This document shows, piece after piece, positions 11,721 through 35,105 of a stretch of 38,110 nucleotides of DNA (the first letter of the stretch is position 1; each line of letters opens with the position of its first letter). Source of the stretch: a virus. The notes beneath the pieces are model-generated. The model worked only from the letters and a program-made list of their open reading frames with translations. It made no database searches and was not told the DNA's origin. The position numbers and the translations under genes are program-made. Location: IMG/VR virus record IMGVR_UViG_3300009160_000077, positions 1 to 38,110 of that record. One strand, given 5' to 3'.

Positions 11721-14700
11721 ATGGCAGAAAACACTATACCACAAGATGGATTAAATGGGTTAACGGATATTAATACATTTACAGGACCAGTAAAATCAGG
11801 ACTTACAGAATATACACCTTTAGCTCCATTACCAACAGATATACAACAATTACCTGGTGGATCAAGTATTCCAAATAGAACTTATGCTACTAAGGATTTT
11901 ACTGTAGGTTCATCTCCCACATATTCTGCAAAATTAAATCAAAGAGTTGCTACACCTGGTACAAGTAGTAAAGCTCAAGCAGATTTCATGCAGAATTTAT
12001 TTAATAATTCTCATGATCCAAATGCATATGGTAAAATGTATTCATTTGATAACTCTCCTGGTAGTGGTTCCTTCAAAGCAAGATATAGTGGATATGGAGA
12101 AAAGACATATAATAAACTAGGTTTTGATCCAACTTCAGATACAGAAACATGGTATAATCAAAATACAACTCAGTTTGATGACTGGAAAAGAATGATGACT
12201 CATGCTGCTTGGCCAATGATTAAATTAGGATTTATGAGTCCTGTTAATTCATATGCTAAAATGCTAGGTCATGGTGATGTTGGAGCTAATCAGCAAGAAG
12301 CAAGAGATTATGAGTACTTTAATGCTATTGGTAATTCTACCAAAGGTGGTCTTGGAGGATTCATGACTAACTTGCAAAATTCAGCTGCTTATTCTGTAGG
12401 TATTCTTGCAGAAGGATTAGTTGAAGGTGCAATTATTGGAGGAGCTGTGGGTTTTGCTGAAGGTGGTTTTGGAGCTATTCCAGGAGCGGCAATTGGTGGT
12501 ATTACAGGTACAGTAAAAAGTTTAGCAAAATTACCAGGAGCTTTGTTTAACACAGCTAAGAACATGGGTAAAATTGCAAGTTCTTTGAAAAGTTTGTCTA
12601 ACATAAGTAGTGCAAAAAGTTTTTGGACAAATGCTGGTAGTAAATTAGCAAATGGATTAAATCCTTTAGATAATACAACTGATTTAATCAGAGGTTGGAA
12701 AGATATGGGAGACATAACAAGTTTAGCACGTTCTGCTAGATCTGTTGGTGCTTTCTGGCATGATGTTAAAAATATTAACATGGCTTTATCTGAAGGTAGG
12801 CTTGAAGGTGGTTTTTCAGAACAAGCAACTTACAAAAAACTGTATGATGAACATTATGCAAAAACTGGAGAAGTTCCTTCTGATGATGAGCAGGTAAGAA
12901 TGATGCAACAAGCAAAAGATAATGGTTTTGCTAATACAATGTGGAATACTGGATTAGTATTCTATTCAAATAAAATTGCTTTTCCTTCTATTACAAGAGC
13001 TGGTTTCTTAAAAGGTATCCCTAAGTTTGGAGGAGTTATTGGAACTGTAGGTAGAGAGAAACAAATCATATTTAATCCAGGTAAGAAAGCTGCAGAGGCT
13101 GCTTATACTCTAGAAGATGTTAGTATTAAAAACTCACTGAAAGCTTTAAAGAGCCCAAAACAATGGGGAAAACTTGCAGGTAATTATTTCAAAGCTAATT
13201 TAGTTGAAGGTTTTCAAGAAGTTGGTCAAGAAGCTTTATCAAAAGCAACAGAAGATTACTATGTAAGTAGTTATAACAACCCAGCATTAAAGAACTATAG
13301 ATATGCATTAGGTGCTATTGGAGCAGGTATTAAAGATCAATTAAGTGCTCAAGGAGCAGAAGTATTTGCTTCTGGTTTCTTAATGGGTAGTTTAATTTCT
13401 GGTCCAATAAATACTGTACAAAAATTTGGTAGTGTTGGTTATAATAAATACTTTAAGCATAAAGATAATTACAATGAATACATAGCAAATAAACAAGCAC
13501 AAGGTACACAGATTGTTGAAGCATTAAATACAATGCATCAAAATGGTAAATACTTTTTTGATCCTAAACTGAATAATTATTCAGATCAAATGCTGGTTGG
13601 TAAAGTTGTTGATAATTCAGATGATAAAACTACTGCAGAAATAAAAGATGCAGGTCATCAAGCTTTTACTTCATCTGTCTTAACAGCATTACAAACAGGA
13701 ACCTTTGATACTTTTATTAAAAACTTTGCTGATTACAAATCTGCAACACCTGAAGAGTTAGAAGAAGCTTGGAGCTTAGAGCCTGGTCAAGGTGCAAAAG
13801 CATTACAAAAACTAGACAAAGCAATTGATAATGCAAAAGTTATTGCAAAAAGATTTCAGTTTGCTCAAGATAAGTTTGGTAAATACAGAGTAAATCCTGC
13901 AGAGTATAAAGAAGGAACTATAGAAAGACAAAGAGCTGAGTTTTATAACAAAGCAATCAGTATAGGTATAAACAACCTGACTTTTATGCAATCTGCTTTT
14001 GATGATACTTTAAAAAGAAGTAATAAACTATACAGTGGTTTAGCTGACATATCTTCAATTACAGGAAATGCTTTTGCTGATGTTGCTTTACTAACTGATC
14101 CGTCAAGATTGAATAACCAAATTCAAATGTTGGCTTCTCAAATTACATTTGCTAAAGAATCAAATGATCCACAAATCATGGATAATGTGAGAAAGGACTT
14201 GAAGACAATGAAACTTGTGGAGGACTTTCAAAAAAAGCAAAAAGTATTAAGACAATATGTATTAGATACAGCTCTCTTACCGGAAGAAGAATTATATAAA
14301 AGATATGCAAGTGATCCAATTGAGGATTACAAAGCTAGTTATCATGATTTATTAAAAGGTTTAGCAGGTACTCCTGAGAAGCAAATGAATCTTGATAATG
14401 ATATAAGTGCAAAGGGTGGTATTGATGTTTTATTTGATGAGCTTTTAGATACTGACATGTTAAAGAATCAAGCTGCAGGTCTTGCTAAATATGTTAACTT
14501 ATTAAGTGATCCAAAAGATTTCTTAGAGCATGTAGATAAAAACTATGAATGGATGCAAAATCTTTACAATAACAGAAAAGAATATTTTCAGTCTATTGTA
14601 AATGAGCAAATGGCAGCTATTGAAAGAAATGCTTTACTTAATGCTTTAGCTGATCAAGGTATATATGTTGATTTAGAGCAGTTTGCAAATTGGGCTCAGG

Positions 14701-17660
14701 ATAATAATAATTATCCAGAATACTTTATTGATGAAACAAGAGGTATGATCATCAACCAAAACAGCCCTCTTTATGCTGACTACTTAGATCTTTTCATTGA
14801 TGCAACAAATATGAATGCAATTCCAGCTGCGGGTAATCCGGTATCTGAGAAAGAAAAAATGCAAGATAGACTTGATGATATTGAAGAAAGAAGAAGTAAA
14901 GACTTAGAAGATGCTAATGAAAATTATAATAGAGAATTAGTAAAAGCTTATGGTAAAGATGAGGCAGGTATATTTGATGATATAAGAAAAACTTTAAATG
15001 AAGATACTTCAAGAGAAGAAATAGTTGCATTAGAAATTCAAAAAGAAGAACAAGAAGTTTATTTGAACATCCTGAATGGAGACACTGTTCAAGGAATGAT
15101 TGACATCTATCCTAAATTGGAAGAGCTTGTATCTGAAGAAAGCTTCAATGATGCTCAGACTATAGCAGCTTCTGATAAAACTATAATTGAAAAAGCAAGA
15201 AAAAGAGGTCCTATTTTTAATCCTGATGCTCAAACACCACAGGAAAAAGCTGATGCTATAAATAATGCATTTACAATTGAAGTATATAAAAACATCCTTG
15301 AGAACAACATTAAAGATCTTGAGGAGCAAATTAAAAATGTTAAGTCTCCTGAGACTTTTGATATTGAAGCTTTTCCAGAGTATTTAGCATACCAAAGTGA
15401 TGTAAACCAGATCAATGAAAAATATGATGGTTTTGTTCAAGAAGTAAAAGATGAATTTAAAGAACAAGGTGTTGATGAAAATACTTATGAAGAAGTAACT
15501 ACAGCTACTCCTTATGAAAATTTACCAGAAGGGTTAAAAGCCATGGTTGATGAAGAGTTTGCAAAGTTTCTTACTGAACAATTAGAAGATCCAAATTTAC
15601 AACAAACTAATCCAGAAAATTTTGAACGTACAAGAGCTAACTGGTTGCAAAGTCAAACTAAATTATTTAAAGCTTATGGTGAGAAGGCAAGAGCTGAGGC
15701 AGTTGAACGCGCTAAGGAACTTGCCAGACCACCATTCTTAAAATTTTTCAAATTACAAGTATCAGGAAAAGATGCTCTAAATACTTTAACAGACTATTTA
15801 AAAAATCTTCAGAAAATTGTTGACACTGGTAAGTTTTTAAATTCAAAATCTAAAACTATTGAAGCTACAGCTGATGAACTTGCCCTTATTAAAGAAGACA
15901 TTGAGGCTTTAAAAGGTTATATAAACAGCAGAAAACAAGTTTATAAACCACAAAATATTGCTCAAGAAACTTATAACAATGTAGAACAAAACATTGTAAA
16001 TAGAAGAGGAGAAGTAGAAGATGTATTTAATGAAGAAGGTGTTAAGACAGGTAGAAAATTTGTTGATTCTGAAAACACACCTTTAAGAGCTACTCAAGTA
16101 TCTGATGAGGTTGTAACTAAAATGGTTGGTAAACCAGATTATTTCTTTACTCCTATCAATGAAAGTAAATATGAAACAATAATAGAAATGTATGATAGGA
16201 TTTTTAATGACCCTACTGTAACAGATCCTATTAACCAATTCATGTTAGCATTTCAAAAAAGAGCAGCAGAATTTAGAGGAACCTTTGGTACTAATGCAAC
16301 AAAATTAGATCAGGTAGAAAAAGCTTTAGACTTACCAAAAGAAGAATTTTTAAAAGCTCTTGATAATATTGCTTTTAATCACAGAAGCACAGCAGGAACA
16401 AATGCAGATGCTTTAATTAGAGAATCACTTTCTATTTCTAATGATGAAATTAAATTTAAAGCAGTACCATATACAGACTCAATTGATATTAATGGGCAAA
16501 GAGTTAGGGTATCAGATATAATGACTAAGGATGCATATGATGCATTGTTTGATGCAAATACTGGTATCATTGCTCCACTGTTAAATGACATATTTGATAA
16601 CAAACTTAGAATACTATCTAACAATGTTCTTGTGTTTGACAAATCCTTAAGAGAAAATGGTATTACAGGTGAGTTAGATTTACTTGCATTAACAACTGAT
16701 GGTAAATTAAAGATTATTGATATCAAACTTTCTTCTGGTTCTACTTGGAAATCTTATGAAAAAGAAAATAACCGTAGAAAACTAGAGCATAGAGCTCAGC
16801 AATCTATTTATCAAACATTGGTGTATAACATGACTGGTATTACTCCTGACATATCTATATTACCAATTGAATTTGAAGCAAATCTTGATGGTAAAATAAC
16901 TAGTATTAAAAAATCTTCATTACTTGCTGAAGATCAAAATGTTTATGATTTAGAATATTTACCAGAGATTGAAAACGCTGGTATAGTTAGAGTAGATTCT
17001 GCTATTTCAATGACAACAAGTTCTTCAATGGGGGAAAGCTCACCTGAGGTTAAACCCGCAACAGAAGAAGAACTTGGAGAAATAATCAATTCTACAAAAG
17101 TTACTGATGAAGAATTGTTAGATGAAGAAACTGCTAAAAATCCTATAATGGATTTCAGTAAAGCTAAAAACATGACTGAACTTGGTAAATTAACAGCAGA
17201 AGCTCTTATTGATAATCCCGAATTAGCATCAGAAATTGCTGATGCATATGCAGCTAAACAATATGAATTAAAAACAAAAATTTCTGTTGATAATCTTGAA
17301 GTTGGTGAGTTATTGATGGCTAAAGTTCCTATCTTTACAAACTATGAAAATGAATTTGTTTTTGTAACACAAGTCAAAGGCAACAATGTGATTGTTAAGG
17401 ACTCAATGACAGATGAAACAAAAACATTTACAGAAGAGGAAATGAAAGAAATGTTCATTAAAACAACTAAAGAAGCTGTGGAAAACATGAATGCACCAAT
17501 AGTTACACAAGAAGATGTAGCAAATTCTAAAGAATCTCATGAGAATTTTTTAAAATTCTCAGAAAATACTGAAGAAATTAGTAAATTAAAAAAAGAGACT
17601 GATAACAAATCAGAAGATGAGATAATCAGTAAGATTCAAACTAACGCTAAATACTGTTAA
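11721..17660 (+). CDS. Giant ejection-type protein with PD-(D/E)XK nuclease domain (1979 aa)
   Basis: The ATG at 11721, 5 bases after the preceding stop, is preferred over an in-frame TTG at 11703. Residues about 222-268 form a Gly/Ala-rich hydrophobic stretch (GAIIGGAVGF, GAAIGGITG) that could cross or disturb a membrane. Residues about 1590-1720 look like a RecB/Cas4-type PD-(D/E)XK nuclease: GELDLLAL (E1651, D1653), then KIIDIK (D1667, K1669), then the motif IV helix HRAQQSIYQ (Q1693, Y1697). The rest is mostly helical and acidic with no recognised domain. The protein ends in Cys just before the stop. It is in frame with the next gene, one codon beyond the TAA. Its place ahead of the RNA polymerase gene suggests packaging and injection; the nuclease could act on host or competing DNA, but this is inferred. 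Confidence 0.75.
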   Translation: MAENTIPQDGLNGLTDINTFTGPVKSGLTEYTPLAPLPTDIQQLPGGSSIPNRTYATKDFTVGSSPTYSAKLNQRVATPGTSSKAQADFMQNLFNNSHDPNAYGKMYSFDNSPGSGSFKARYSGYGEKTYNKLGFDPTSDTETWYNQNTTQFDDWKRMMTHAAWPMIKLGFMSPVNSYAKMLGHGDVGANQQEARDYEYFNAIGNSTKGGLGGFMTNLQNSAAYSVGILAEGLVEGAIIGGAVGFAEGGFGAIPGAAIGGITGTVKSLAKLPGALFNTAKNMGKIASSLKSLSNISSAKSFWTNAGSKLANGLNPLDNTTDLIRGWKDMGDITSLARSARSVGAFWHDVKNINMALSEGRLEGGFSEQATYKKLYDEHYAKTGEVPSDDEQVRMMQQAKDNGFANTMWNTGLVFYSNKIAFPSITRAGFLKGIPKFGGVIGTVGREKQIIFNPGKKAAEAAYTLEDVSIKNSLKALKSPKQWGKLAGNYFKANLVEGFQEVGQEALSKATEDYYVSSYNNPALKNYRYALGAIGAGIKDQLSAQGAEVFASGFLMGSLISGPINTVQKFGSVGYNKYFKHKDNYNEYIANKQAQGTQIVEALNTMHQNGKYFFDPKLNNYSDQMLVGKVVDNSDDKTTAEIKDAGHQAFTSSVLTALQTGTFDTFIKNFADYKSATPEELEEAWSLEPGQGAKALQKLDKAIDNAKVIAKRFQFAQDKFGKYRVNPAEYKEGTIERQRAEFYNKAISIGINNLTFMQSAFDDTLKRSNKLYSGLADISSITGNAFADVALLTDPSRLNNQIQMLASQITFAKESNDPQIMDNVRKDLKTMKLVEDFQKKQKVLRQYVLDTALLPEEELYKRYASDPIEDYKASYHDLLKGLAGTPEKQMNLDNDISAKGGIDVLFDELLDTDMLKNQAAGLAKYVNLLSDPKDFLEHVDKNYEWMQNLYNNRKEYFQSIVNEQMAAIERNALLNALADQGIYVDLEQFANWAQDNNNYPEYFIDETRGMIINQNSPLYADYLDLFIDATNMNAIPAAGNPVSEKEKMQDRLDDIEERRSKDLEDANENYNRELVKAYGKDEAGIFDDIRKTLNEDTSREEIVALEIQKEEQEVYLNILNGDTVQGMIDIYPKLEELVSEESFNDAQTIAASDKTIIEKARKRGPIFNPDAQTPQEKADAINNAFTIEVYKNILENNIKDLEEQIKNVKSPETFDIEAFPEYLAYQSDVNQINEKYDGFVQEVKDEFKEQGVDENTYEEVTTATPYENLPEGLKAMVDEEFAKFLTEQLEDPNLQQTNPENFERTRANWLQSQTKLFKAYGEKARAEAVERAKELARPPFLKFFKLQVSGKDALNTLTDYLKNLQKIVDTGKFLNSKSKTIEATADELALIKEDIEALKGYINSRKQVYKPQNIAQETYNNVEQNIVNRRGEVEDVFNEEGVKTGRKFVDSENTPLRATQVSDEVVTKMVGKPDYFFTPINESKYETIIEMYDRIFNDPTVTDPINQFMLAFQKRAAEFRGTFGTNATKLDQVEKALDLPKEEFLKALDNIAFNHRSTAGTNADALIRESLSISNDEIKFKAVPYTDSIDINGQRVRVSDIMTKDAYDALFDANTGIIAPLLNDIFDNKLRILSNNVLVFDKSLRENGITGELDLLALTTDGKLKIIDIKLSSGSTWKSYEKENNRRKLEHRAQQSIYQTLVYNMTGITPDISILPIEFEANLDGKITSIKKSSLLAEDQNVYDLEYLPEIENAGIVRVDSAISMTTSSSMGESSPEVKPATEEELGEIINSTKVTDEELLDEETAKNPIMDFSKAKNMTELGKLTAEALIDNPELASEIADAYAAKQYELKTKISVDNLEVGELLMAKVPIFTNYENEFVFVTQVKGNNVIVKDSMTDETKTFTEEEMKEMFIKTTKEAVENMNAPIVTQEDVANSKESHENFLKFSENTEEISKLKKETDNKSEDEIISKIQTNAKYC

Positions 17661-17675
17661 GATATGGCATGTTCA
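17658..17675 (+). other. In-frame stop/start junction between giant genes, copy 1
   Basis: The sequence TGTTAAGATATGGCATGT reads Cys, stop, Asp, Met-Ala-Cys in one frame. It ends the 1979-aa gene and starts the 3275-aa gene. It is identical at 15 of 18 bases to the junction at 27489-27506. No Shine-Dalgarno is present, so re-initiation after termination is the likely way the downstream gene is translated. Confidence 0.7.
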
Positions 17676-20600
17676 CTTACCCAAGAGCAAATTGGTGATG
17701 TTTATCAATTAATTTATAAAAAACTTTCTGGAGCTGATACTTTGGAAAGTTTTGATTTAGAGGGATTGATAAAACAACTTTATAAAATAGTTCTAGAAGC
17801 TACAGAAGATACAGGTAAAGCTTTACAATATGCACAAGCTGTTCCTGATATTTTTTATTTGGTTGGAAATGATTCAGAAATAAGAAAAAAACTAAGACAA
17901 AGTAAGTTTAGTTTTGATGCCTTAGCAGATTTAAGTTCAGATTTTGAAAATTTAGAAACTGTAAATACTTATGTAAATCCTGCTCCTATAACACCTGATG
18001 AAATTGAAGACACAGTTACTGATATTTTAAACCATAAGGAAGATGTTTCATATGAAGAACTTCCTGAAGAAAAAGTTGCTGAATATCAAAAATCTGCAGC
18101 AAGGATTTTATTTCCAATGTTTACAACAGGTCAAGAAGCAATTGCAGTAAATCCATCAACTACATCAGAAAAAAATGTAAAAGATCCTGAGAAAGCTTTA
18201 TTTTACAAAGTAATTAGAGACATAGTTTATTTTGCTAAGAACAGAAATGAAGATGATACTGTTACTTATGCTGGTAAAGAACTTGGTCTTACTATAATGA
18301 GAGCTAATCAGTTTCCAGATGATTATAGATTGGAATCTGATAAAGCATATTATAAAGGAGAAGATACTGAACTTTATGGAGTTGTAACATACACAGATGG
18401 TTCACCAGTTTATTTTAAAGAAAATGGTGAGATTACTGAAAATCCACAAGATGGTAGAATAATCTATCAAACTATAAGAAAACCTCAGTTAAGTGACACT
18501 AATAGACTTCTTTTTAAAAATAAGTCTGGTTATGCTTATCAATTGCTTGATGCTGAATCAATAGTTGAAAGAGAGCAAAAAGAGTTAGGTACTGACTATT
18601 CAAAAGCTGCTTTTGATACTAGAGTTAATGAAATAAAGAAAGCTCAACAAATGCAGATGAATCAATTATTTGCATTAAGAAAATATGTTAGTGAAACAGG
18701 TAAAGCTATTGTTACTCCTATAACAGGTGGATCTTTTGGAGCATATGAGAAAGTACCTGCACCTAAGTCAATAAAAAGTTTTACAGAGCTATCAGAAGCA
18801 GATCTTAAATCTTATGAATACCATCCTAAAACAGGATATGTTTCTTTTGATTATAGTACTGAAACACCAGGTGGTAAAATAGATCAAACAGTATATCTAA
18901 AATCAGATATGGATGAGACACTTGCTGCTAAAATTGCTGATGTTTTAACAAGTAAGGGTAAGCTTAATGGTGAAGAATTTAGTGGTGCTGATAAAAGAAC
19001 ATTCTTTGAAGTATTTGTTTACAATACTACTATTACAGATGGTGAACCAAGTAGTATTGAAGTGGTTCTTAATAGTAACAAAGAACTTGTTGTTAAAATC
19101 AAAGGTAAAGCAATACCAGAAAATGTATTATATAGTGAAGAAGGAAAACAAATTATAAAAGAAGCACTTCTTAAAGGAAAAGTAAAAAAGAATAAGCAAG
19201 GAAATATTACTGGAACTTATCCATTAAATGTGCATTATAATAAAACTTATAAAGATAAACCTTTTACTGACTATGAAATTAATGGTGATAAAGTAATTGC
19301 AAAAGAAATGAGTCATTTTGATGCAATTAAACCATACATGAAAATTCAGTATACAGGTGATACAAATGCATATTACAATGGATTAAATGCTTACTTAGGA
19401 TTTAGTCTACCTGCTGATTTACCGGCTGACTTCCCTAATGTTCCTAACTTTGGAATCTCAGTATTTAAGCCAGCAGATAAAATCAAAACTCCAATTAAAA
19501 CAGAAGAACCTAAAACTGATTTACCAGCTAAACCTTCTGTAAGTAGAACTATAACAAAACCTGCAGCAGATAAAGTTATAATAGAAGATAGAACACCAGG
19601 TATACCAGATATACAAACAAGAAGTGCAATTATAAATACTCCATCAACAAAAACTTCTGAGAAAATTGATTTTGATAAATTAGACAGAAAAAAATCTGTA
19701 TCTAATTTCTTAGATAGAGTGTTTACAAATAAAGCTGACAGAGAAAGAGCTGAGAAATGGTGGAAAAATTCTCCATTAAATAAAGACAGTGAAGCAAATA
19801 AAGAAAAAGAAAGACTTTCTCCAGGTAGTACTAAAAATTTAATCAGTCTTAAAAGAATTACTGAAGTAGTGAACTCAGATGCATTTGCAACATTTACTGG
19901 TTCAGGTATTACTCTTTATCAAGCTGATGGAGGTACTGCAGTAGATTTGTATCATGAATCTTGGCATGCATTCTCACAGTTGTTCTTAACAAAAGATGAA
20001 AAAATAAAATTATATAATGAGCTCCGTACAAACAAGAAATGGGCTAAAGCAGATTACATTGATATTGAAGAAGCAATTGCTGAAGATTTCAGATCTTATG
20101 CAAAAAGTAAAGGCAAGAAAGAAGCACCTAAAGGTTTTCTTGGAGAAGTGTTTAAAAGGATTTATGCTTTTTTGCGCAACATGTTTGCAAAAGTTAAGAC
20201 AACTGAAATGGCTACTAGACCTAGGGATATTGAATCCGTTAGGGAGTTGTATGACATGTTGTACAGAGCTTCTGCAACTCCTGACATATTCCAAAATCTA
20301 AAAGCAAATGCTGAGAACATGATGTTTACTCAGCTTAACAGATTAAAAGATAATATTGTTCCTGTAAAAACTGCAGCAAAAGACTTTGCTCCATTTACAA
20401 TTGATGAATCAGTATTAATGACAAATACAATTGATAATATCATAGCAGATGTTTTTGAAAATTACAATTTAGATAGACAAACTTCCACAGGTCCTGTTAA
20501 ATTTTTACGTAGTACTAATAACAGAGTTATACTGTACAAAAATGTTAAAGCTGAGTTGGATAATTTATGGAAACTTAAAGTAGCACAGTTTGAAAGTATT

Positions 20601-23600: not shown

Positions 23601-26600
23601 GAAATGAATGAGTCATATAAGGGTAAGTCAATTTTTTCTACTCAGATGAGAAAGCTTATACTGGATGGTCTTTATGAGCAAGGAGTAATTACTACTAAAA
23701 ATGACAAAGCAATAACAAGTGATATTGTAAATAAGTATTTAAATGATGTATCTGAATATACTGAGCTATTAAAACTTGAGTTGCTTAATGAAATTGGTTA
23801 TAATGAGACTACTCCTGGAGAATATACTCCAAAAGATGCTGAAAGTATTGGTAAATTATTGATGTTAATCAGAGATAATTTGGAAAGAGAAGATGCATTA
23901 AGTGATGATATCATTTCATTCATTGATGCAACTAAGACAGGTGAATTAGTAAATGATCTTTCATTCCACCCGGAAGCAGGTAAGATTGAGAAGTTGTTAT
24001 TATCTCTTATCAATAAAAGAGTGATTAAACAGAAAGTAAAAGGTGAACCATTGATTCAAGTTTCATCTGCACTGTATGAGAACAATTTCACGGGAATGCC
24101 TACTTTTGAAAATCCTACAGATGAAGAGAAGAAAAAATGGTTAGGTACCAATGGTCTTCCTACCTATCATAAAAGAGCTGATGGTAAAACCGCAGCAATG
24201 AAGGTTATGATTGCATTACAGGGGGACTATGCTAACTTGTTGAATCTTGAGTATAATGGACAAATCATTGGTGATATCAAGACATTAAACAGAGCTGTCA
24301 AAGATGATACATGGTTAGATGCAAATGATGGTGCTAACAGAAAAGCAATAACACTTGTTGGTGTACGTATTCCAGTTCAAGGTTTGAACTCTATGGAGTT
24401 TATGGAAGTGTATGAATTCTTACCTCCACAAGCAGGTAATATCATCATTCCTCCAGCAGAGATAGTTGCTAAGTCCGGAGGTGACTTTGATATTGATAAA
24501 CTTACAATCTTTATGACTAACATAGACAAGACTGGTAAGCTTAAAGAAAAAACCTATGAAAGCAATGAATGGATTAAAAAACAAATAGCTGAGCTTAATG
24601 CTAAAGGTGAATCAACTGAAGCTTTATTCAAAACTCAAAAAGCTGGTTTAGAGAATGAATTAATTAAAGACATCAAAGAAATTCTTGAGCTACCAAGTAA
24701 TTATGTATCTCTAATTACACCAAATGGTACTTTCTTACTTAAAGAGATTGCTGATGATTTATCTCAATATGTAATGGATTATAACCGTTTTGAAACTTTT
24801 ATGACTGAAGGTCAAAAAAACAAGAAAAATAAGGATATGATCAGTCCAACAAGAGTATTAGAGAATGCTTATAATATCTTTAAGCATGAGTCAAACATTG
24901 TAGGTAAGAAAACCCTTGGTCTAGGTGCTATTGAAAACACATTCAATGTACTCTTTAATTCAATTGGAGCTTACATGCCAGCTCAATACAAAGGTGCTGA
25001 GATAATTAAAAAAGTTAATCTTGCTTTGAGACATAATTCAATGGATGTTAATGGAGAAAAAAGAATTTCTCTTTCTAACAGATATGATGCAGATAACTAT
25101 AATAAAATTGCAGATATCTTTTCTCAAGCAATGAATGGCTGGGTAGATGTTGAAAAAGATGCATGGATATTCTTTATCCAGGGTAACTATGAAGTTGCTC
25201 CTATACTTACTTATTTAGCAAAAGCAGGTGTTCCAATCAAAGAAGCTATTTACTTTGTGTCACAACCTTTAGTAAGAGAGTATGTAAAAGAACAAAGAGA
25301 AATTACTTCTGCTTATGCTGAAGTGTTACACAAAGTTCCAAAATTTGGTGGTGTTAAAATAAATGCAGCTAAAAACATATTAAGCAGACGTTTTGGATAT
25401 TCATTTAACAAAAATGCATCTGATAAAATTTATCAAGCAGCAGTGGAAGCTGTAGGAGATAAACAATTTTCTCAAGATGAGATGTATAAATTGATTAAGG
25501 ATTACAAAAAAGATCCTTCTGTGGCAAACAGTGAACTTTCTAAAGCAATGTTCTTACATTTCTTACAGATAGAAGATCAGATAAAAGGAATAGCTCAGGT
25601 TAAAATGAATACTAATCCTGATACAAGTTTAAAATCTGTAATTGCGGGTGTTGAACAAACTGAATCTAACTTAGAAAATTTAGCAGAAAATGAAGATCTT
25701 AATTACCTTGTAGAAAAGTTTTTAAAAGATTCTGTAATATCTTCTTTCTTTAATGGTCCTTTGGCCCTTGCAATAGGCAGACCTTTATTTAAATTAAGAT
25801 ACCATAAGGCAATCAGTAGATATCTAATGGACAAAGAAATGAGTATCATTCAAGAAATGAAAGAAACTGTAGGTGAAAACAAAAGAGATTTGTTTAGCTC
25901 TACTTTCAGAAATGACTTAGTTATGTATTTGTTGCAAAATGCTATTAGAAAATATACTAAGTCTGATAGCTACATGTCTTTGAACTCTACAAAAATGACT
26001 GCAGCGGATATGAAATCAAATGTAATTGGAGCCTTTGTTAAAAAAGGTACTCTTTACATTGATGAAGCAAGAATAAAACAAGAGTTTCTTGATAAAGCTT
26101 GGGCTATTAAATCTGAAGCAGAAAACAGTTATGAAAAACTAGGTCTTCATCCATTACCTGCAGGAACATTCACTGGTAACAAAAATGGTAACTTATCTGA
26201 ATATACAAAATTTGTTGCTGAAAGAGAATACTTAAGAAGTGCCTTCCCTCAAAGAGAAGATGAAACTAAAGCTGAATATGAAAAATTCTTAGCTGAGAGA
26301 GCTTTGGACAATACTTTTAACTTGTTTCACTTGTTTAAAGATGAGAATAATAACTATGCAAAAAGATACACTGAGCTTTTAGAGAAATACCCTAGACTAG
26401 CAAACAGATTTGAAGTTCTTAAGAAAATTGGATATGATGAATTGAGAGATAAGAATACGCTTAAGATTGCTAACTTAAAGCTTAATGATAGAGATGTAAA
26501 TAGCAGTAAAGCTAACTTATACACAACTAACATTAAAAACTTAAGTGATGTGATATACTTAAGAAAACTTGGATACAAAGATGGAGCAGCAACTGAGATT

Positions 26601-27491
26601 TCTCAATTCTTTAACAAACTTCCAATGTATGCTTATATCCAATCCGGATTGAATAAAACTCCATACAGTTTGACAAGTATTGTTGATTACACAGATTTTG
26701 CTAATATCTTAAAAGAAGAATCTGAAGCATTTATCAAAGTGTTAGATTCTTCAACAAGTGAGGTAGTATTAAATGATTTCAATAACCTATTCCTAACTCA
26801 AAACAACATTTCTAGAGGTTCTGAAAAAGGAAGACTTAAAGACTATATCAGCAATTTAGATTTTAAAACTTTTAAGTTAAGTGACAACAGTAATTTAATA
26901 GATTCAAATGTTAGACTTGAAAAAGCTACTCAACCAGCTACTGAAGCTGTAGAAGAACAAGATTATCTAGAAGAAACTTCTGTAGAAAACATGATGACTT
27001 TTAATGATCAAGATGCTGATGTTAATTACTACAGAAATATGTTGAAACAACATCCAGATGTTATCTATATTACTAATCCTGCTGTAACAGATATACAAAC
27101 TAAGTTTGCAAAACCTGAGACTAATCAAGCTGAATTTGCTAAATTAGCAGGTGAAATGAGTATAACAATTCCTACAGATTTAAAACCAGGTGATAATATG
27201 AAAACTTTCCCTGTTGATAAGTATGATGACTACAAAAAAATGGTTGAAAGAAAGATTGCAGACATTAAAACGGCAATGCAAAATCAATCAGTAGCTTTTT
27301 CTAAAGCTGGTTATGGAAATGCATACTCAATGCCTCAAGAATTATTTGTATATTTAAGTAAGAGGTTGTATGAAGAATTTGGATATGTAAATCCAGGTTC
27401 AGCTATAGATAATGAACTAAGTGATCAAGATATAAGTGATGCAGAAATACTGCAAGCATTAGGTTTTGAAAGTGATCCATTTAAATGTTAA
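17664..27491 (+). CDS. Giant virion RNA polymerase with fused zincin-like domain (3275 aa)
   Basis: The motif SGGDFDIDKL (D2274, D2276, D2278) is the metal-binding signature of the second double-psi beta-barrel of the single-chain crAss-like phage RNA polymerases related to the cellular beta' subunit. The preceding RIPVQGLNSM and NIIIPPAEIVAK fit that barrel. K1903 and K1942 (in ESGSKVG) may be the lysines of the beta-type barrel, though this is less certain. Residues about 740-860 hold a separate zincin-like domain: LYHESWHAF (H764, E765, H768), then IEEAIAEDF with a possible third ligand, then FLRNMF. This family transcribes early phage genes after ejection into the host. The protein is longer than the roughly 2200-residue characterised relative that I recall. 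It starts MAC and ends FKC. Confidence 0.88.
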   Translation: MACSLTQEQIGDVYQLIYKKLSGADTLESFDLEGLIKQLYKIVLEATEDTGKALQYAQAVPDIFYLVGNDSEIRKKLRQSKFSFDALADLSSDFENLETVNTYVNPAPITPDEIEDTVTDILNHKEDVSYEELPEEKVAEYQKSAARILFPMFTTGQEAIAVNPSTTSEKNVKDPEKALFYKVIRDIVYFAKNRNEDDTVTYAGKELGLTIMRANQFPDDYRLESDKAYYKGEDTELYGVVTYTDGSPVYFKENGEITENPQDGRIIYQTIRKPQLSDTNRLLFKNKSGYAYQLLDAESIVEREQKELGTDYSKAAFDTRVNEIKKAQQMQMNQLFALRKYVSETGKAIVTPITGGSFGAYEKVPAPKSIKSFTELSEADLKSYEYHPKTGYVSFDYSTETPGGKIDQTVYLKSDMDETLAAKIADVLTSKGKLNGEEFSGADKRTFFEVFVYNTTITDGEPSSIEVVLNSNKELVVKIKGKAIPENVLYSEEGKQIIKEALLKGKVKKNKQGNITGTYPLNVHYNKTYKDKPFTDYEINGDKVIAKEMSHFDAIKPYMKIQYTGDTNAYYNGLNAYLGFSLPADLPADFPNVPNFGISVFKPADKIKTPIKTEEPKTDLPAKPSVSRTITKPAADKVIIEDRTPGIPDIQTRSAIINTPSTKTSEKIDFDKLDRKKSVSNFLDRVFTNKADRERAEKWWKNSPLNKDSEANKEKERLSPGSTKNLISLKRITEVVNSDAFATFTGSGITLYQADGGTAVDLYHESWHAFSQLFLTKDEKIKLYNELRTNKKWAKADYIDIEEAIAEDFRSYAKSKGKKEAPKGFLGEVFKRIYAFLRNMFAKVKTTEMATRPRDIESVRELYDMLYRASATPDIFQNLKANAENMMFTQLNRLKDNIVPVKTAAKDFAPFTIDESVLMTNTIDNIIADVFENYNLDRQTSTGPVKFLRSTNNRVILYKNVKAELDNLWKLKVAQFESIVNSNLAKDELSDEDIITEENALAKIELLNKTIESFGDPELSVTGQQKTGVIAFHLANSKFKLLNDTFTESLEDPTIIKSDSGNTINSKDLASIETVTVLSSLFKIARNENNKIITNDNGYVYEVDEFGFKQLEDYNNNWNRLAKVLEGSFDKNEMYDRIEANKENYPEFIQLLTLLPAKDSEKYSDKIAFNTITKFWQDLKKPRIRYNQLNINRVTDEKGNITNEARVSTSAFDIQSVVKDWQYSFTLADAGVSDFIDKETKFGRNLLNVEAVIKAFYDPQTKGLKTGKDVPLKFLNAIGIKLDQGSPVIKELTADKNFSREYGLQYIFDALQQVYINRAEPKAYEFALNPVKNLLDGLDESLKMDKTKAGDVRSRIKKLAELQVQNSDAYSNFAALSPEKNRVWEHFVDNTITRVVTSLNYGKNWQELTRDDADPNNKFQHMRWLSVDNNTYTQFSKLINSMYDIKTGEKKKNALSIYNMAGTQVIGENDSSTTGVSTASMDATSKFLQEMHTMLLQGLEEFMRHASKQSAMGLTAKNGIQTYADKKASKLYVDIEAFEGNPTYGESKAFDILVGYLSGEANRIFRFQSDSKFENWAGYNRPVKRKDGKGTETMAGAAFTAFDDVLTEDTQADLYAIIDKASKSKDAKFNMFDILSDNVDLRLKVKADVVKYFNALTKQSQSMLDEAKYIDNGLLSRVDSKLKPSEKETALLKAYNYNSWIHKFETAIIAYGDFAQYNHEKEEFHKRNAGLGSGGGGFGVDLKDQQYVNALEKVYVNTLNQKRKDKGLDLIIPRDYTGTLDTAIIKEREENSIYFNEYREALIADYTDRLKDARQAEKLADIALGEYNGMKIGDGQGHITIEAYRNLKNLEGKWSDEQEELYKKVSRGEDVTIEDVIKYFPPYKLQYFGNMKTEGLTLTSFHKFSLAPIVPGVAKEGTPLYDLHEKMLVDGIDYVLFESGSKVGHIGTGDNIFNADNSINKDAVFTKNTIFAEYLKNQTEMNESYKGKSIFSTQMRKLILDGLYEQGVITTKNDKAITSDIVNKYLNDVSEYTELLKLELLNEIGYNETTPGEYTPKDAESIGKLLMLIRDNLEREDALSDDIISFIDATKTGELVNDLSFHPEAGKIEKLLLSLINKRVIKQKVKGEPLIQVSSALYENNFTGMPTFENPTDEEKKKWLGTNGLPTYHKRADGKTAAMKVMIALQGDYANLLNLEYNGQIIGDIKTLNRAVKDDTWLDANDGANRKAITLVGVRIPVQGLNSMEFMEVYEFLPPQAGNIIIPPAEIVAKSGGDFDIDKLTIFMTNIDKTGKLKEKTYESNEWIKKQIAELNAKGESTEALFKTQKAGLENELIKDIKEILELPSNYVSLITPNGTFLLKEIADDLSQYVMDYNRFETFMTEGQKNKKNKDMISPTRVLENAYNIFKHESNIVGKKTLGLGAIENTFNVLFNSIGAYMPAQYKGAEIIKKVNLALRHNSMDVNGEKRISLSNRYDADNYNKIADIFSQAMNGWVDVEKDAWIFFIQGNYEVAPILTYLAKAGVPIKEAIYFVSQPLVREYVKEQREITSAYAEVLHKVPKFGGVKINAAKNILSRRFGYSFNKNASDKIYQAAVEAVGDKQFSQDEMYKLIKDYKKDPSVANSELSKAMFLHFLQIEDQIKGIAQVKMNTNPDTSLKSVIAGVEQTESNLENLAENEDLNYLVEKFLKDSVISSFFNGPLALAIGRPLFKLRYHKAISRYLMDKEMSIIQEMKETVGENKRDLFSSTFRNDLVMYLLQNAIRKYTKSDSYMSLNSTKMTAADMKSNVIGAFVKKGTLYIDEARIKQEFLDKAWAIKSEAENSYEKLGLHPLPAGTFTGNKNGNLSEYTKFVAEREYLRSAFPQREDETKAEYEKFLAERALDNTFNLFHLFKDENNNYAKRYTELLEKYPRLANRFEVLKKIGYDELRDKNTLKIANLKLNDRDVNSSKANLYTTNIKNLSDVIYLRKLGYKDGAATEISQFFNKLPMYAYIQSGLNKTPYSLTSIVDYTDFANILKEESEAFIKVLDSSTSEVVLNDFNNLFLTQNNISRGSEKGRLKDYISNLDFKTFKLSDNSNLIDSNVRLEKATQPATEAVEEQDYLEETSVENMMTFNDQDADVNYYRNMLKQHPDVIYITNPAVTDIQTKFAKPETNQAEFAKLAGEMSITIPTDLKPGDNMKTFPVDKYDDYKKMVERKIADIKTAMQNQSVAFSKAGYGNAYSMPQELFVYLSKRLYEEFGYVNPGSAIDNELSDQDISDAEILQALGFESDPFKC

Positions 27492-27506
27492 GAAATGACT
27501 TGTGAA
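27489..27506 (+). other. In-frame stop/start junction between giant genes, copy 2
   Basis: The sequence TGTTAAGAAATGACTTGT reads Cys, stop, Glu, Met-Thr-Cys. It ends the RNA polymerase gene and starts the 2093-aa gene in the same frame. It differs from the junction at 17658-17675 at three of 18 bases, which suggests a common origin or a selected signal. Confidence 0.7.
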
Positions 27507-30500
27507 GTAACAGCAAAAACACTGCAGTATTTAACCGATGAAGGTTTTATTGATTCTGATAACAATGTAATTGAACTTGATAGAGCTCAAATAGCAAAAA
27601 AAGGTACATTACTTGAACAAATAAATAAACTTACAGAACTTGCTGAAAAGAAATATGGTTTAATAACAGGAGGTAAAAATCTGTTGTTTACCAGAAAAAG
27701 TATTATCAGTAATGCTGAAAAGGTCTATACAAATGATTATTTGTTTAATGAGCTTCAAGATAAGATCAATAATTATAAACCAGCAACTACAGAAAACTCT
27801 AATACTTATAAAGGAATTCCTGTAGTAGATACTGAAGATATTATTTCTTATGAGGGTGGTAAAGGTGCAGCTAGTTATAATAGAGCAAATAATATAATAA
27901 AAGTAAACAGAAATTTATTAAAGCAAAAATTTGAAGAAAAAGCTTGGACTAAACCAAGAAAATTAAAAGAAAATTTGCATGGTGAAATTGTTGAAAGTTC
28001 TGCACAAGCGTTACCAGAAGATATATTTAAAAATTATATTGAGTGGGAACATTTTGTAATTAATCATGAGTATCAGCATTCTTTGTATTCTAGAGAAGAT
28101 TTTGATAAAGATTTTCCTAACAGAAGAAAAGGTGATTATGAAAGTGAAATTAACAAAAGAGCTTTAGAAGATCTTAAAGATGAAGCATTAATAAAAAAAG
28201 TATTTGAAATAAGTTTCAATGAAGAAATTCCATTAGTTGACATTAATGTTGATATTATAAATAGTGCAAGAACAAAAGAAGTTGCTGATGTTTTAGCTCA
28301 AAGGCTTTCACAAGGATTAAATGTGAATTATTTTAACATTAGTGCTGAGGAAGCAGTGAAAACCTTGAAAAGCTCACCGGTGCCATATAATGGAGAAGCT
28401 GCATTTTATTATGCTGGAACTGTATATGTAGTAGGGGATAATGTAAATGTTAGAACTGTTCTTCATGAGTTTTCTCACCCTTTATTAGGAGGTATAAGAA
28501 AAAGCAACCCTGCTTTGTTTAACAATCTGTTTAATCAACTTATGATGACAGATGAGGGAAAAACACTTTTTGCACATGTAGAAAAAGAATATCCAGAGTT
28601 AGAAGTAGGCAATGATCTTTTTAAAGAAGAAGTATTATCATTTGCTTTACAATTAAAAGCTACCAACAGAGTTAATAATGAAATAGAGTCAAAAGGTTTT
28701 GATGCTTTTATCACTAAGCTTTTAGCAGCAATGAAGCAATTTCTCCGTAATATTTTTGGTGAAAAAGTCAATGTAAAAAACTTAGATGTAGATACTACAT
28801 TAGATGAACTTGCTGAAATGCTATTGGAAAAAGACTTTGAATTTGCTACAGACATGATATCTGAGGATGACTTGGTCATGTACGGGAGATTTGTTACTGA
28901 AAGAGCTAATGAGTTAGTAAGTAAAACTTCACCAGAGTCTTTACAAAAAGTAGTAAATGAAGTATATGCACAAAACAGAATCTTACTTAACCAAGCAAGA
29001 AACTTCCGTGCAGATAAACCTACTTATGAAAGACTTAAACAAACTCTTTTTAAAGAAGGTACTACAAGTTTATTACCAGAAGTAGTAAGTACTCTTAAAG
29101 GATACCAAAATATTGAAACAGATAATATACTTGATACAGCTGCAATTATTGATAATGTATTAGATGCTGAAGAAAAAAGAATGATTGAAACTAAACTTAA
29201 AGCTGATGCTTTAGTTAACAGTTTAAATAAGATGGACATGTCTAGTGATTTAATTATCAAAGACTTAAACAAAATTTTATCTCAAAGCAATATTAATAAT
29301 AGACAGATTGTTAGTTTAGTTAATTTGTATAAAAACACTGCTTATGCCTGGGATTCAATCATAGATGAGATTAACAATATCTTGAATGTTGATGAAATTG
29401 ATACATCAAGTGAATTCTATATAACACTTAATAAGCTTAAAAATAATGTAAGCATAATTCAAACTCAGATTGCTAATATATACAAGAAGAACAATGTTCA
29501 ATTTTTTGTTGAAGCAACCAGTTATATGAATGACTTTGTTATTAAACAATTAAACACAGACTTAAAAGCTGCATTACAAAAAGCTTATGCTCCAGAAGAT
29601 CTTGAGAATGTTATTACAGGCATTGTAGATAAAGTTACCACACAATCATTAACAACAGAAGATATTGAAGCTTTAGCAAAAGATGGTGTTCCTGTTGATA
29701 GACTTAATGAGTTCATCAAAAAGTATAATGATTACATTGTTGATGAAGACAGAATTACAAAAGCTTTAACAGGACATGCTAAGGATGTCTCTTGGTTCAA
29801 CAGATGGTTAGAGACATATAGTTCAAGTAATGATATCATTGCAGGACCTCTTGCTAACTTTATTCAGAATCAAAAGACTGAAGTTGAAACAGAAGTATGG
29901 CATAAGTCAGCTAAGTTTCAGAAAAAACTAGAAGAGCTTTTACCAAAAGTAAACTTTAATAAATTAAATTCTACTCAGGTAAGAGATATGGTTGCTGGTG
30001 TAGATACCATAATGACTTATGATAAAAAAACTGGTAAGACAACAGAAAAAGAAATCTACACTTTCTTAAATGAATTTGGTAATGGTTGGAGATATCAGTT
30101 AGATATTCTTGAATACAACTATGATCAAGCAAAAGAATCAGGTGATAAAGAAAAAACGGCTCAAGCATTATCTGCATTAAGACAGTTTAATACTGACTAT
30201 ATGTGGCAAGAATACACTCCAGAGTACTATAAAAAAGATGATATCTTTAAAGAGTCTGAAGCTGGTAACTTGGCATACTTAGCAAGAAAACAAGCTCTTG
30301 ATAAATTTAATAACTTGAACAATCAGTTTACAAAAGAACTTGATAGATTTGAACATTATGGAGAAATTGAAGCCGCTTACAGAGAATACAAACAGTTATA
30401 TTCTAGTTTATATGAAGATGGAACTGCTAAATTTGATGATCCTTCTAAAGGTATTTATGATTTATCTATTTCTAAAGTACTTCAGCAACATAGACAAGCT

Positions 30501-33500
30501 ACAAGCGGTTTCTATGAGTTTATTCCCCTTGAGGGATCCCTTGAGACTTCTTATAATCAATTCATAATTGGTCTTAAAACACTTGGTATTGAAAACGGAA
30601 CAGTTGAGTTTAATAAAAAGTATAATGAATGGCTTAAACAAAATGTTAAAGTAGTTTATGATACAGCTTTTTATGAACAAAGAGCTAAATTATTTACAAG
30701 ATTAGCTAAAATTCAATCTAAAATGAATGATGCATTTAAATCAGAGTTTGATGTAAGTGCTGCTTATAAAACAATCAGTGATTTAATTTATAGTTACCGA
30801 GATGATTTTGGACAACCTGATACAAGTCAATTAGGAGTTGAGAGGTTAAAAAAAATCAAAGACATGGAACAAGCTATTATTAACTTTAGAAATAATGTAG
30901 ATAGTAAGTCAGGTCTTTCTAAAGCAGATACAGAATTGTTAAACTCTTATGCAGATAAAGCTAAGAAAAGAACATTAACTCCAGAAGATAGTAAAGAGTA
31001 CATGAGACTCTTACAAAAACAAAAAGATAGTGGGATTGATCCTAAGTTATTAGTAGAACTTGATGCTTTATTTGCTGAGCTTAGAGATATGTCAAATAAA
31101 ATTCCTACAGAATATTACTTGGATGCAATCAATATGCATTTATCTAAGTACAACATTAAAGAAGTAGATGAATTAACAGTTGATGATTTTATAAACAGTG
31201 AAACTTTTCAAGATTTATTAGAAAAAGATGAAAAATTAGCTGACTGGTTTAATTTGAATCATGTTGAGAATACAAGATATGATAAAGATGCAAAGGATTG
31301 GGTTAATGTTTTTCAAAGAACTGCAGCCAATTCATTTACTAAACCAAGTAATCCTGATCATTTTATTAAGACATACATCAATAATACAGAAACAGGAGAG
31401 AAAATAGAAATCTTTGGTGTTCCTGGTGCAAGACATTCTAGATTAGAAGTAAAAGATAAATACAGAACAATTCCTAGAGAAGATGTAAGAGAAAACTATG
31501 TTGGTAAATACATAGACAATAAAGGTAATTTCTTACCAAGAAGCTTTCAACCAGGTGTAAAAAATTCTGCAAGGGATGACAAATTCATGGATAAAAGATA
31601 TGCTGCTTTAAAAGCATCTAATTCTGCAGAGTATCAATTGCTAGAAGCAATGAAAGAACATCACCTTGAAATGCAAAAAAGTCAAAGTACATTTGGTAAG
31701 TTATATTTAGATGTTCCAAGATTTGCTGTAAATAAAGGAGATATCTATCAGGCTTTAAATAGAGGTGCTTATGGTGAAAGATATAAAGAAGCTTGGGGTA
31801 GTATTAAATCAATGTTGAAACAACAGTTTGGTACTTCAGTAGTGGATTTTGAAAATGATTTAAATTACAATCCGGAAAACAACTTGGTTAATACAGATTT
31901 AAGAGGAGATGAAGTTTCATACATTCCCGTAACAGGTCTTTATAACTTAGATATAAAAGATACGGATGCTGATATCATACAAAGTATGTTTAAGTATGCT
32001 CTTTCTTTGCAAACACAAGGGAAGCTGAATGAATCATTACCATTGGTGCAAAGTTTACTTTCTACCTTAGAAGATCCAGCTAACCAACCAAAGAATTTAG
32101 AGAAGTTCTCTAAAGGTCAGTTTAATGTAAGAAATCAATTGCAAAACATAAATAAAAAAGGAGCTGCTAACAATAGATTAGGTCAAGTAAGATCTTTAAT
32201 AGAAAGAGAATACTACGGTGTTAATGTAATTGGTCTTGAAGAAAACTACCCAAGACTAGGTAAATGGTTAAACACACTTACTAAGCTATCAAGTAAATCT
32301 GCATTAACGCTTAATATTCCTTCAGATTTAAAAAATAAATATTCTGGTTATGTCCAAACTCTTATTGAAGGAGCAGGTGGTGACTTTATTACATTAAAGG
32401 ATATTGCTATTGCTACACCTTGGGCTACTAAAGCTATGTTAGAGTGGACTACAAAAGGAATCTATCAGATTGGTCCTGGAGCAGTAAGTACACAACTTGT
32501 ACAAGTATTTGATCCAGTATTTAAAATGGAAGATGAATTTGGTAGATCTATTACAAGAAGTTTATACAAAGACTTAGTAAATGGTGAGTGGATGTTCATG
32601 CACCGTAAGTTTGGTGAGATGGAAGTTGCTATGAAATTATTTGGTAGTTTCTTGCATGGTCAAAAAATAGATATGGTTGGAGCGGATGGTAAATCTACTC
32701 TTATAAGATATGCTGATGCATGGGAAAAAGATGCAGAAGGTGTTCTTCAGTTAAAAAAGGGTATTCATCCAGGTTGGGATTACAAATCTGTATATCATAC
32801 TTATGCTAAAGGTGAAAGCTTGCAAGAAATTGCAGATAAATATGGAATCACTCTGGAAGAATTAAAAGCAAAAAATAGTATAAAAGTTGTTGAACAGCTT
32901 GAAGATGGTCAAGAAATTGTAATTGCTAAATCTGAAAAATTTAAACTTTTTAAAAATAGATTGCAAGGAACTTCTAGAAGACTATTTGGGGTTTATGATA
33001 AGTTTGGTCAACCAGAGGGTAACAAGTACATTATGTACCGTATGTTCTTCTTCATGAGAAAATGGTTTACTCCAATGTTTGCTAACCGTTTTGGTATGGA
33101 TGTTTCTAAACAAAACTTTGGTGGTGATAGATATGATTGGGCTCTTGGTAAAACAACAAAAGGGTTTTATATATCTGCATTCCAAACAATGTGGGGTATA
33201 TTAAAATCTAAAGGAGCTAACTATCAGTATATGACCGATCAAGAAAAAGCAGACTTTAGAAGATTTGCTGCTGAAGGAATGATGATTGTGTTTACTGCAT
33301 TACTTGCTTCTATGTTATTTGGATACACAGATGATGATGATGACAAATGGAAAAAAGTAAAAGCTAGATCTGGTGCTTTTGGTACAGATGAGTATAATAC
33401 TTATGGATTCCTTGCTAATCATGCTCTCTTATTATTATTAGGGTTACAAGCTGAAACAGGAGCCTTTGTTCCACTTCCTAAAGTATTTGGTTTAAACTTA

Positions 33501-33776
33501 GGAGCAGATGATTATGGTAAAATGTTAACATCTACTACTACTGCTTTTGGAAATACATTGTTACTATACACTGAAATCTTTGGTGATATACTAAATGTAT
33601 TAACTTTCAATGAAGCAGCAAGATTTAAAAAAGATACTGGACCATACTGGTGGCAACAAAAAGATGAGTTAAAAATATGGAAAAGATTATTTTCTGCAGT
33701 TGGTTTCACAGCTGGTACAGGAGATCCTGAATCTGTATTGAAAAACTTATCTAAAGGTGCTGGTAGAGTAAGATAA
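27495..33776 (+). CDS. Giant ejection-type protein with two zincin motifs, LysM domain and hydrophobic C-terminus (2093 aa)
   Basis: The first zincin-like motif is INHEYQHSLYS (H191, E192, H195), followed by YESEINKRAL with a candidate third ligand. The second is VLHEFSHPLLGG (H324, E325, H328), followed by FKEEVLSFAL and FLRNIFGEKV, an arrangement also seen in the upstream RNA polymerase gene. The middle (about 480-1500) is helical. Residues 1767-1811 fit a LysM domain: YHTYAKGESLQEIADKYG, LEELKAKNSI and EDGQEIVIA. LysM binds peptidoglycan-type glycans. The last 180 residues contain hydrophobic segments near 1928-1945, 1969-1988 and perhaps 2015-2036. Together this suggests an ejected protein that touches cell wall and membrane, possibly as a conduit or anchor for the polymerase. 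Proteolytic activity is not proven. Confidence 0.75.
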   Translation: MTCEVTAKTLQYLTDEGFIDSDNNVIELDRAQIAKKGTLLEQINKLTELAEKKYGLITGGKNLLFTRKSIISNAEKVYTNDYLFNELQDKINNYKPATTENSNTYKGIPVVDTEDIISYEGGKGAASYNRANNIIKVNRNLLKQKFEEKAWTKPRKLKENLHGEIVESSAQALPEDIFKNYIEWEHFVINHEYQHSLYSREDFDKDFPNRRKGDYESEINKRALEDLKDEALIKKVFEISFNEEIPLVDINVDIINSARTKEVADVLAQRLSQGLNVNYFNISAEEAVKTLKSSPVPYNGEAAFYYAGTVYVVGDNVNVRTVLHEFSHPLLGGIRKSNPALFNNLFNQLMMTDEGKTLFAHVEKEYPELEVGNDLFKEEVLSFALQLKATNRVNNEIESKGFDAFITKLLAAMKQFLRNIFGEKVNVKNLDVDTTLDELAEMLLEKDFEFATDMISEDDLVMYGRFVTERANELVSKTSPESLQKVVNEVYAQNRILLNQARNFRADKPTYERLKQTLFKEGTTSLLPEVVSTLKGYQNIETDNILDTAAIIDNVLDAEEKRMIETKLKADALVNSLNKMDMSSDLIIKDLNKILSQSNINNRQIVSLVNLYKNTAYAWDSIIDEINNILNVDEIDTSSEFYITLNKLKNNVSIIQTQIANIYKKNNVQFFVEATSYMNDFVIKQLNTDLKAALQKAYAPEDLENVITGIVDKVTTQSLTTEDIEALAKDGVPVDRLNEFIKKYNDYIVDEDRITKALTGHAKDVSWFNRWLETYSSSNDIIAGPLANFIQNQKTEVETEVWHKSAKFQKKLEELLPKVNFNKLNSTQVRDMVAGVDTIMTYDKKTGKTTEKEIYTFLNEFGNGWRYQLDILEYNYDQAKESGDKEKTAQALSALRQFNTDYMWQEYTPEYYKKDDIFKESEAGNLAYLARKQALDKFNNLNNQFTKELDRFEHYGEIEAAYREYKQLYSSLYEDGTAKFDDPSKGIYDLSISKVLQQHRQATSGFYEFIPLEGSLETSYNQFIIGLKTLGIENGTVEFNKKYNEWLKQNVKVVYDTAFYEQRAKLFTRLAKIQSKMNDAFKSEFDVSAAYKTISDLIYSYRDDFGQPDTSQLGVERLKKIKDMEQAIINFRNNVDSKSGLSKADTELLNSYADKAKKRTLTPEDSKEYMRLLQKQKDSGIDPKLLVELDALFAELRDMSNKIPTEYYLDAINMHLSKYNIKEVDELTVDDFINSETFQDLLEKDEKLADWFNLNHVENTRYDKDAKDWVNVFQRTAANSFTKPSNPDHFIKTYINNTETGEKIEIFGVPGARHSRLEVKDKYRTIPREDVRENYVGKYIDNKGNFLPRSFQPGVKNSARDDKFMDKRYAALKASNSAEYQLLEAMKEHHLEMQKSQSTFGKLYLDVPRFAVNKGDIYQALNRGAYGERYKEAWGSIKSMLKQQFGTSVVDFENDLNYNPENNLVNTDLRGDEVSYIPVTGLYNLDIKDTDADIIQSMFKYALSLQTQGKLNESLPLVQSLLSTLEDPANQPKNLEKFSKGQFNVRNQLQNINKKGAANNRLGQVRSLIEREYYGVNVIGLEENYPRLGKWLNTLTKLSSKSALTLNIPSDLKNKYSGYVQTLIEGAGGDFITLKDIAIATPWATKAMLEWTTKGIYQIGPGAVSTQLVQVFDPVFKMEDEFGRSITRSLYKDLVNGEWMFMHRKFGEMEVAMKLFGSFLHGQKIDMVGADGKSTLIRYADAWEKDAEGVLQLKKGIHPGWDYKSVYHTYAKGESLQEIADKYGITLEELKAKNSIKVVEQLEDGQEIVIAKSEKFKLFKNRLQGTSRRLFGVYDKFGQPEGNKYIMYRMFFFMRKWFTPMFANRFGMDVSKQNFGGDRYDWALGKTTKGFYISAFQTMWGILKSKGANYQYMTDQEKADFRRFAAEGMMIVFTALLASMLFGYTDDDDDKWKKVKARSGAFGTDEYNTYGFLANHALLLLLGLQAETGAFVPLPKVFGLNLGADDYGKMLTSTTTAFGNTLLLYTEIFGDILNVLTFNEAARFKKDTGPYWWQQKDELKIWKRLFSAVGFTAGTGDPESVLKNLSKGAGRVR

Positions 33777-34393: not shown

Positions 34394-34395
34394 AA

Positions 34396-35093: not shown

Positions 35094-35105
35094 AATATAT
35101 TTGAT

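Follow-up and report, generated by a model that had tools for sequence, protein, structure and literature searches.

Why should three giant viral genes meet at two almost identical junctions, each with a cysteine codon on either side of the stop? The question is raised by the IMG/VR virus record IMGVR_UViG_3300009160_000077, which we analysed over its whole 38,110 bases (the window); it is a fragment without the Crassvirales structural block (the major capsid protein (MCP), portal, TerL and IHF genes). As the initial annotation reported, open reading frames of 1979, 3275 and 2093 amino acids (aa) share one frame at 11721-17660, 17664-27491 and 27495-33776, all on the plus strand; we call them P1 (1979 aa from its ATG), P2 and P3. 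The 18-mers at the two boundaries do differ at three positions, with break 1 (17655..17672, plus strand) reading Cys-TAA-GAT-Met-Ala-Cys and break 2 (27486..27503, plus strand) reading Cys-TAA-GAA-Met-Thr-Cys. The described layout of Cys-TAA-acidic codon-Met-x-Cys is thus present at both, although the acidic codon is untranslated and not conserved. The cysteines on both sides, which had been left unexplained, proved to be the conserved feature and the real finding.

P2 matched the RNA polymerase (RNAP) of crAss001 (5e-18) and phi14:2 (4e-16) in tblastn comparisons, carries the RNAP active-site motif DFDID at aa 2274 (24483..24497, plus strand), and has an RNAP core that can be aligned with named Crassvirales. 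The gene order P0-P1-P2-P3, in which the RNAP lies between two other giant proteins and follows tail and cargo genes, matches that of phi14:2 and cr111_1, with P1 in the position of crAss001 gp47 and phi14:2 g067 and P3 in that of crAss001 gp49 and phi14:2 g065. Since P2 matches the RNAP and P1 and P3 hold these positions, the window was taken to carry a crAss-like phage's block of transcription cargo genes; judged by homology and gene order, P1, P2 and P3 are its virion RNAP and two partner cargo proteins. An N4-type single-chain virion RNAP (vRNAP) was ruled out, P2 being of the DFDID type and homologous to the crAss RNAP and the block consisting of three polypeptides. Searching the PDB with P2 gave no match at the sequence level, and a Foldseek search with a model of the P2 N-terminus also gave none. 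The sections of the crAss001 study drawn on here (PMC10172136) report that gp47, gp49 and gp50 were detected in virions by mass spectrometry and placed in the cargo zone of the capsid, and that they are expected to be partly unfolded as they go through the tail. Virion presence and injection of P1-P3 are carried over from crAss001 and may be expected here.

Cysteines at the breaks in the window and in relatives

P1, P2 and P3 together contain four cysteines in 7,347 residues, and each lies within three residues of one of the four inner ends. P1 has one, its last residue (Cys1979, 17655..17657); P2 has two, Cys3 (17670..17672) and Cys3275 (27486..27488); and P3 has one, Cys3 (27501..27503), all on the plus strand and all located by sequence and alignment. 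The chance that four randomly placed cysteines would all fall within three residues of these four ends is ~7e-13, and the other, non-cargo genes of such phages contain 1.3-1.5% cysteine. The upstream neighbour P0 (1077 aa, 8482..11715, plus strand; crAss001 gp46 position) served as a control: it has no cysteine at all, and its boundary to P1 has none either. In AlphaFold2 (AF2) models, the P1 and P2 cysteines sit in end tails 3-6 residues long, next to helical bundles, where they are predicted to be free to meet.

For comparison with relatives, two scans of IMG/VR viral contigs, mostly metagenomic, yielded ~125 loci with this RNAP. Start codons were picked without regard to cysteine, and 222 breaks could be scored; after clustering at 70% core identity to reduce redundancy, 52 clusters with 92 intact breaks remained. 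A cysteine was present within 10 residues on both sides of all 92 intact breaks, at -1 to -10 on the C-terminal side and at +3 to +6 on the N-terminal side (reaching +7 when all scored breaks are counted). The sole scoring failure among the 222 breaks was a locus (L074) where an upstream ATG overlapping P1 had been picked although an MKVTC start is present. Three further candidate exceptions were rejected as reading-frame shifts, at poly-A runs in L027 and L131 and at a single indel in L110. By contrast with the inner ends, none of 91 final C-termini carried a cysteine, the one flagged case (L108) being itself a new break, and neither did any of four P1 N-termini among the IMG/VR relatives. 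Internal cysteines numbered 16 in the 519,923 residues of complete pieces, with 185 of 199 pieces having none.

The same held in 16 named Crassvirales genomes of the Steigviridae, Suoliviridae and Intestiviridae (p-crAssphage not included), where the cysteine pair was found at 21/21 breaks and at 0/16 outer N-termini and 0/16 outer C-termini. Among 49 other proteins used as background, cysteine occurred in the first 7 residues of one and in the last 10 residues of three. When the end regions were aligned (39 for the P1 C-terminus, 40 for the P2 N-terminus, 39 for the P2 C-terminus and 39 for the P3 N-terminus), the terminal cysteine was the only invariant column in each, while mean column identity was 14, 23, 15 and 16%, respectively. 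Taken together, cysteines stand at both ends of every break and at no outer end, and this pattern is order-wide.

The DNA of the junctions behaved differently. Within the window, the pattern TGYTARNNNATGNNNTGY occurred twice versus 0.10 times expected from shuffles; since one of 100 shuffles also contained two, the likeness of the junctions is only moderately unlikely and no more than suggestive. Frame relations at the 92 non-redundant junctions in relatives were split 32/22/38, with both reading frames equal in 32/92, and spacing ranged from -11 to +36 nucleotides; the stop was TAA, TAG or TGA and the cysteine codon TGT or TGC. Because frame, spacing, stop and cysteine codon are not conserved, a readthrough or re-initiation signal, as initially suggested, and DNA-level signals generally are excluded as the explanation. 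The proposed duplication of a module boundary also failed, with P1, P2 and P3 sharing no mutual similarity. The idea of a split polyprotein fared better in part: the proteins act like a single chain that can be broken, and the suggested comparison of boundaries did reveal versions with P1+P2 or P2+P3 fused in other families, but a split by stops within one frame did not stand, frame sharing being no more than chance-like. A lipoprotein signal or an intein was rejected as well, as the sequences of the ends point to nothing beyond Met-x-Cys and a bare C-terminal Cys.

Fusion, fission and relocation of the breaks

Lineages in which breaks have been lost, gained or moved provide natural experiments on the cysteine pair. 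Suoliviridae and Intestiviridae have the same chain in the same order as the window, but with one break fused. In Suoliviridae, P1+P2 form a single protein of ~4,500-5,800 aa that has no N-terminal cysteine and lacks the pair where the two are fused, but the break that is left retains a pair. The P2+P3 protein of Intestiviridae (~4,250-4,620 aa) likewise lacks the pair where it is fused; it has a cysteine at position 3-5 and a C-terminus without one, and P1 ends in cysteine. Several of these giants, unlike the window, appear to use reassigned stops: five Suoliviridae giant genes (L087, L089, L093, L095 and L098) contain many in-frame standard stops and keep their terminal cysteines, which is consistent with stop-codon reassignment.

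Breaks have also been gained. An extra piece of 242-655 aa lies between P2 and P3 in ten loci (L016, L022, L027, L029, L030, L054, L070, L130, L134 and L145), with cysteine at both of its ends. In L108, a GIY-YIG endonuclease gene sits at the point where P3 (15312-22076) is split, and the halves end in DCG-stop and start with MAC, whereas the intact P3 homologue of L105, 48% and 45% identical to the two halves, has no inner cysteine. The second half of the L108 protein begins with a P-loop domain (GTSGSGKST) that cannot be aligned to the intact L105 homologue. Where P2|P3 breaks have shifted, the intervening regions could not be aligned by BLAST, so the precise homology of these breaks was not demonstrated.

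A piece of ~6,385 aa in L133 (IMGVR_UViG_3300027983_000017, P2 from 3902) has cysteines only near its two ends, and the next piece begins with MSC; its reading as a P2+P3 fusion was dropped when this cysteine-flanked break was found further on. The single frame, observed together with that of L152, carries DFDGD at ~aa 2337 and DFDID at ~aa 5683 and is thus an apparent duplicated or double-core virion RNAP, judging from these motifs.

Two further cases separate the gene from the protein. The RNAP gene of cr108_1 is interrupted inside the DFDID motif with no cysteine there; this is apparently an intron, that is, a gene break without a protein break. In crAss001, which has homologous positions and order and a homologous RNAP, P1 and P2 (gp47 and gp50) are non-adjacent and on opposite strands, with gp47 on the other strand unlike in the window, yet the cysteines are retained: gp47 has one at -3, gp50 has them at 5 and -9 plus one inner cysteine, and gp49 has one at 5. 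Cellulophaga phage phi14:2 has three consecutive genes, as in the window, encoding g067, g066 (the virion RNAP, PDB 6VR4) and g065; these show the same 1-2-1 pattern (-1 | 3, -2 | 3), although the proteins are shorter and the structure is of recombinant g066 alone.

The vRNAP of N4 (Schitoviridae gp50) resembles P2 as a giant virion RNAP ejected via a narrow tail ("beads-on-a-string", PMC12633501) but belongs to a different RNAP family and forms one unbroken polypeptide of 3,500 aa. It has no cysteine, and neither do gp51 and gp52; the absence of end cysteines in N4 can be attributed to its being one unbroken polypeptide. From the fusion, fission, relocation, intron, strand and N4 cases together, there are two terminal cysteines for every break. 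The searched portion of Bayfield et al. 2023 (PMC10172136) contained no mention of terminal cysteines or inter-cargo links, and no report of the pattern was found in the open literature searched, although a prior mention in the phi14:2 structure paper is possible.

A proposed disulfide-coupled cargo chain and its alternatives

Since the end cysteines are always paired in proteins otherwise nearly free of cysteine, a disulfide is the simplest cause. We therefore favour, with a probability of roughly two in three, the reading that P1-P3 are consecutive pieces of one chain that are disulfide-linked at the cysteine-marked breaks, threaded in order and freed by reduction. Packaging, and ejection with partial unfolding, come from the published crAss001 work; the disulfide, the order, the pulling and the release are what we infer from a conserved, break-dependent cysteine pattern. 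The C-terminal cysteine of one piece would bond with the N-terminal cysteine of the next to give P1-SS-P2-SS-P3, a chain of ~7,350 residues, whose linked pieces would be threaded through portal and tail in a set order, with each piece drawing the following one after it, until reduction in the host cytoplasm cut the links and freed the polymerase. Inner cysteines would be avoided so that wrong disulfides could not block unfolding or threading, and the disulfides would restore the single chain that is genetically encoded in N4 and in the families with fusions. Such a chain agrees with published views that giant virion polymerases are threaded like beads on a string (described for N4 in PMC12633501). 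Disulfides between virion proteins occur in the same phage order, in the tail and portal vertex of crAss001 (PMC10172136, in the sections used here), although these join folded structural subunits laterally rather than cargo head to tail. As speculation, P1 could go first and become inserted in the membrane, given the glycine-rich hydrophobic stretch near its N-terminus (approximately aa 223-246) and the hydrophobic segment near the C-terminus of P3 (aa 1923-1945).

Thioredoxin-family genes are annotated near the RNAP block of several gut Crassvirales (L090, 14396-14665; L148, 25987-26256; L084, 32689-32958; L094, 13770-14015; L099, 31463-31732). Thioredoxin is a possible redox partner of the terminal cysteines.

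Several points weigh against disulfide coupling. The evidence for the putative disulfide is drawn from sequence patterns, structural models and homology. Virion assembly takes place in reducing cytoplasm, and the hosts are often anaerobes; the cysteines would thus need to be oxidized at a late stage or within the capsid. Between 3 and 17 internal cysteines are tolerated in these proteins by several gut Crassvirales, and with each protein present in several copies per virion, homotypic links would be possible too. The phi14:2 RNAP structure (PDB 6VR4) was determined on the recombinant protein by itself, and coupling is therefore not needed for the RNAP fold.

Among the alternatives, non-covalent docking, in which the terminal cysteines would be buried in a small interface between consecutive proteins with no disulfide needed, accounts equally well for the pairing and for its loss on fusion, and AF2 sets both ends of break 1 beside helical bundles. 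However, a packing residue would rarely be the sole invariant column in four alignments with no other interface residue conserved, the distance of the cysteine from the end varies (-1 to -10, +3 to +7), and the near-absence of inner cysteines is left unexplained, so that we regard docking as unlikely. Disulfides that tie each end cysteine to an identical protein or to some other protein of the virion are a distinctly improbable explanation: according to part of the crAss001 study (PMC10172136), each cargo protein is probably packed in more than one copy, and gp45 homologues in several Steigviridae have a close cysteine pair, but in Suoliviridae most homologues of gp45 and gp46 are free of cysteine, the cysteines stand at inner ends and never at outer ones, and both members of a pair are missing together in fusions and present together after fission. 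Metal coordination, with the terminal cysteines of neighbours, perhaps in several copies, binding zinc or another metal to hold the ends, is very unlikely. Cysteine pairs are common metal ligands. Several copies per virion, as the same part of that study indicates (PMC10172136), could supply four thiols, but each end has a single cysteine, and no His, Asp or Glu is conserved next to it.

Two further alternatives were weighed. That the window's junctions are alike would suit a DNA- or RNA-level signal for translational coupling, re-initiation, frameshift or stop readthrough, but the random frame relation, the scatter in spacing, the varied stops and cysteine codons, and the persistence of the cysteines in crAss001 with P1 and P2 on opposite strands make this scarcely credible. 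The compared phages probably share ancestry for the P1|P2 break, and the cysteines might then be chance or functionless relicts of an ancestral junction; their invariance amid 14-23% mean column identity speaks against this, and the pairs at new, lineage-specific breaks already contradict it, leaving a negligible probability.

Neighbouring features and implications for Crassvirales

The cargo proteins contain several further motifs. P1 has PD-(D/E)xK nuclease-like motifs (GELDLL ... DIKLSSG, aa 1650-1673; 16668..16739, plus strand), and the AF2 model of this segment gave weak Foldseek matches to AdnA, RecE and EXO5 (E 0.01-0.09). P2 has an HExxH-type motif, HESWH, at aa 764 (19953..19967, plus strand), and P3 has HEYQH and HEFSH as well as a LysM domain (aa 1772-1810).

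Upstream, a free-standing GIY-YIG homing endonuclease (7841-8482) lies between cargo genes, and its start, MATYLQ, resembles the MSTYLQ of the following gene (8482), which might mean that this gene start was copied or is a target of the element. The virion genes at 1292-2785 and 2843-7781 contain recurring GG-containing segments, such as FQDGGDVEADLTQDEIDQYVKGGFIVEDI and QKGGMVAKLTPKEIQEYINQGYIVEEH within one protein. A 965-aa protein (4884-7781), probably in the position of crAss001 gp45, has a four-cysteine cluster, CPC...CNEC, at aa 670-694. Downstream, replication genes occupy 33819-38110 on the opposite strand, among them a MazG/PRA-PH-like nucleotide pyrophosphohydrolase (34016-34393) and a family B DNA polymerase fragment that reaches the contig end (36557-38110).

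Crassvirales are the most abundant human gut phages, and they have to move RNAP machinery of >800 kDa through a narrow tail. The presence of a cysteine pair at every cargo break and its absence in fusions suggest an order-wide coupling device. We consider it an even bet that Crassvirales as a whole eject one chain of ~5,000-9,000 residues that is cysteine-coupled at lineage-specific breaks, with redox state acting as the switch for RNAP release. The cysteine-pair rule provides a sequence criterion for cargo boundaries, and coupling through cysteines would offer a reason why gene breaks are so well tolerated here and would make the question of ejection testable.

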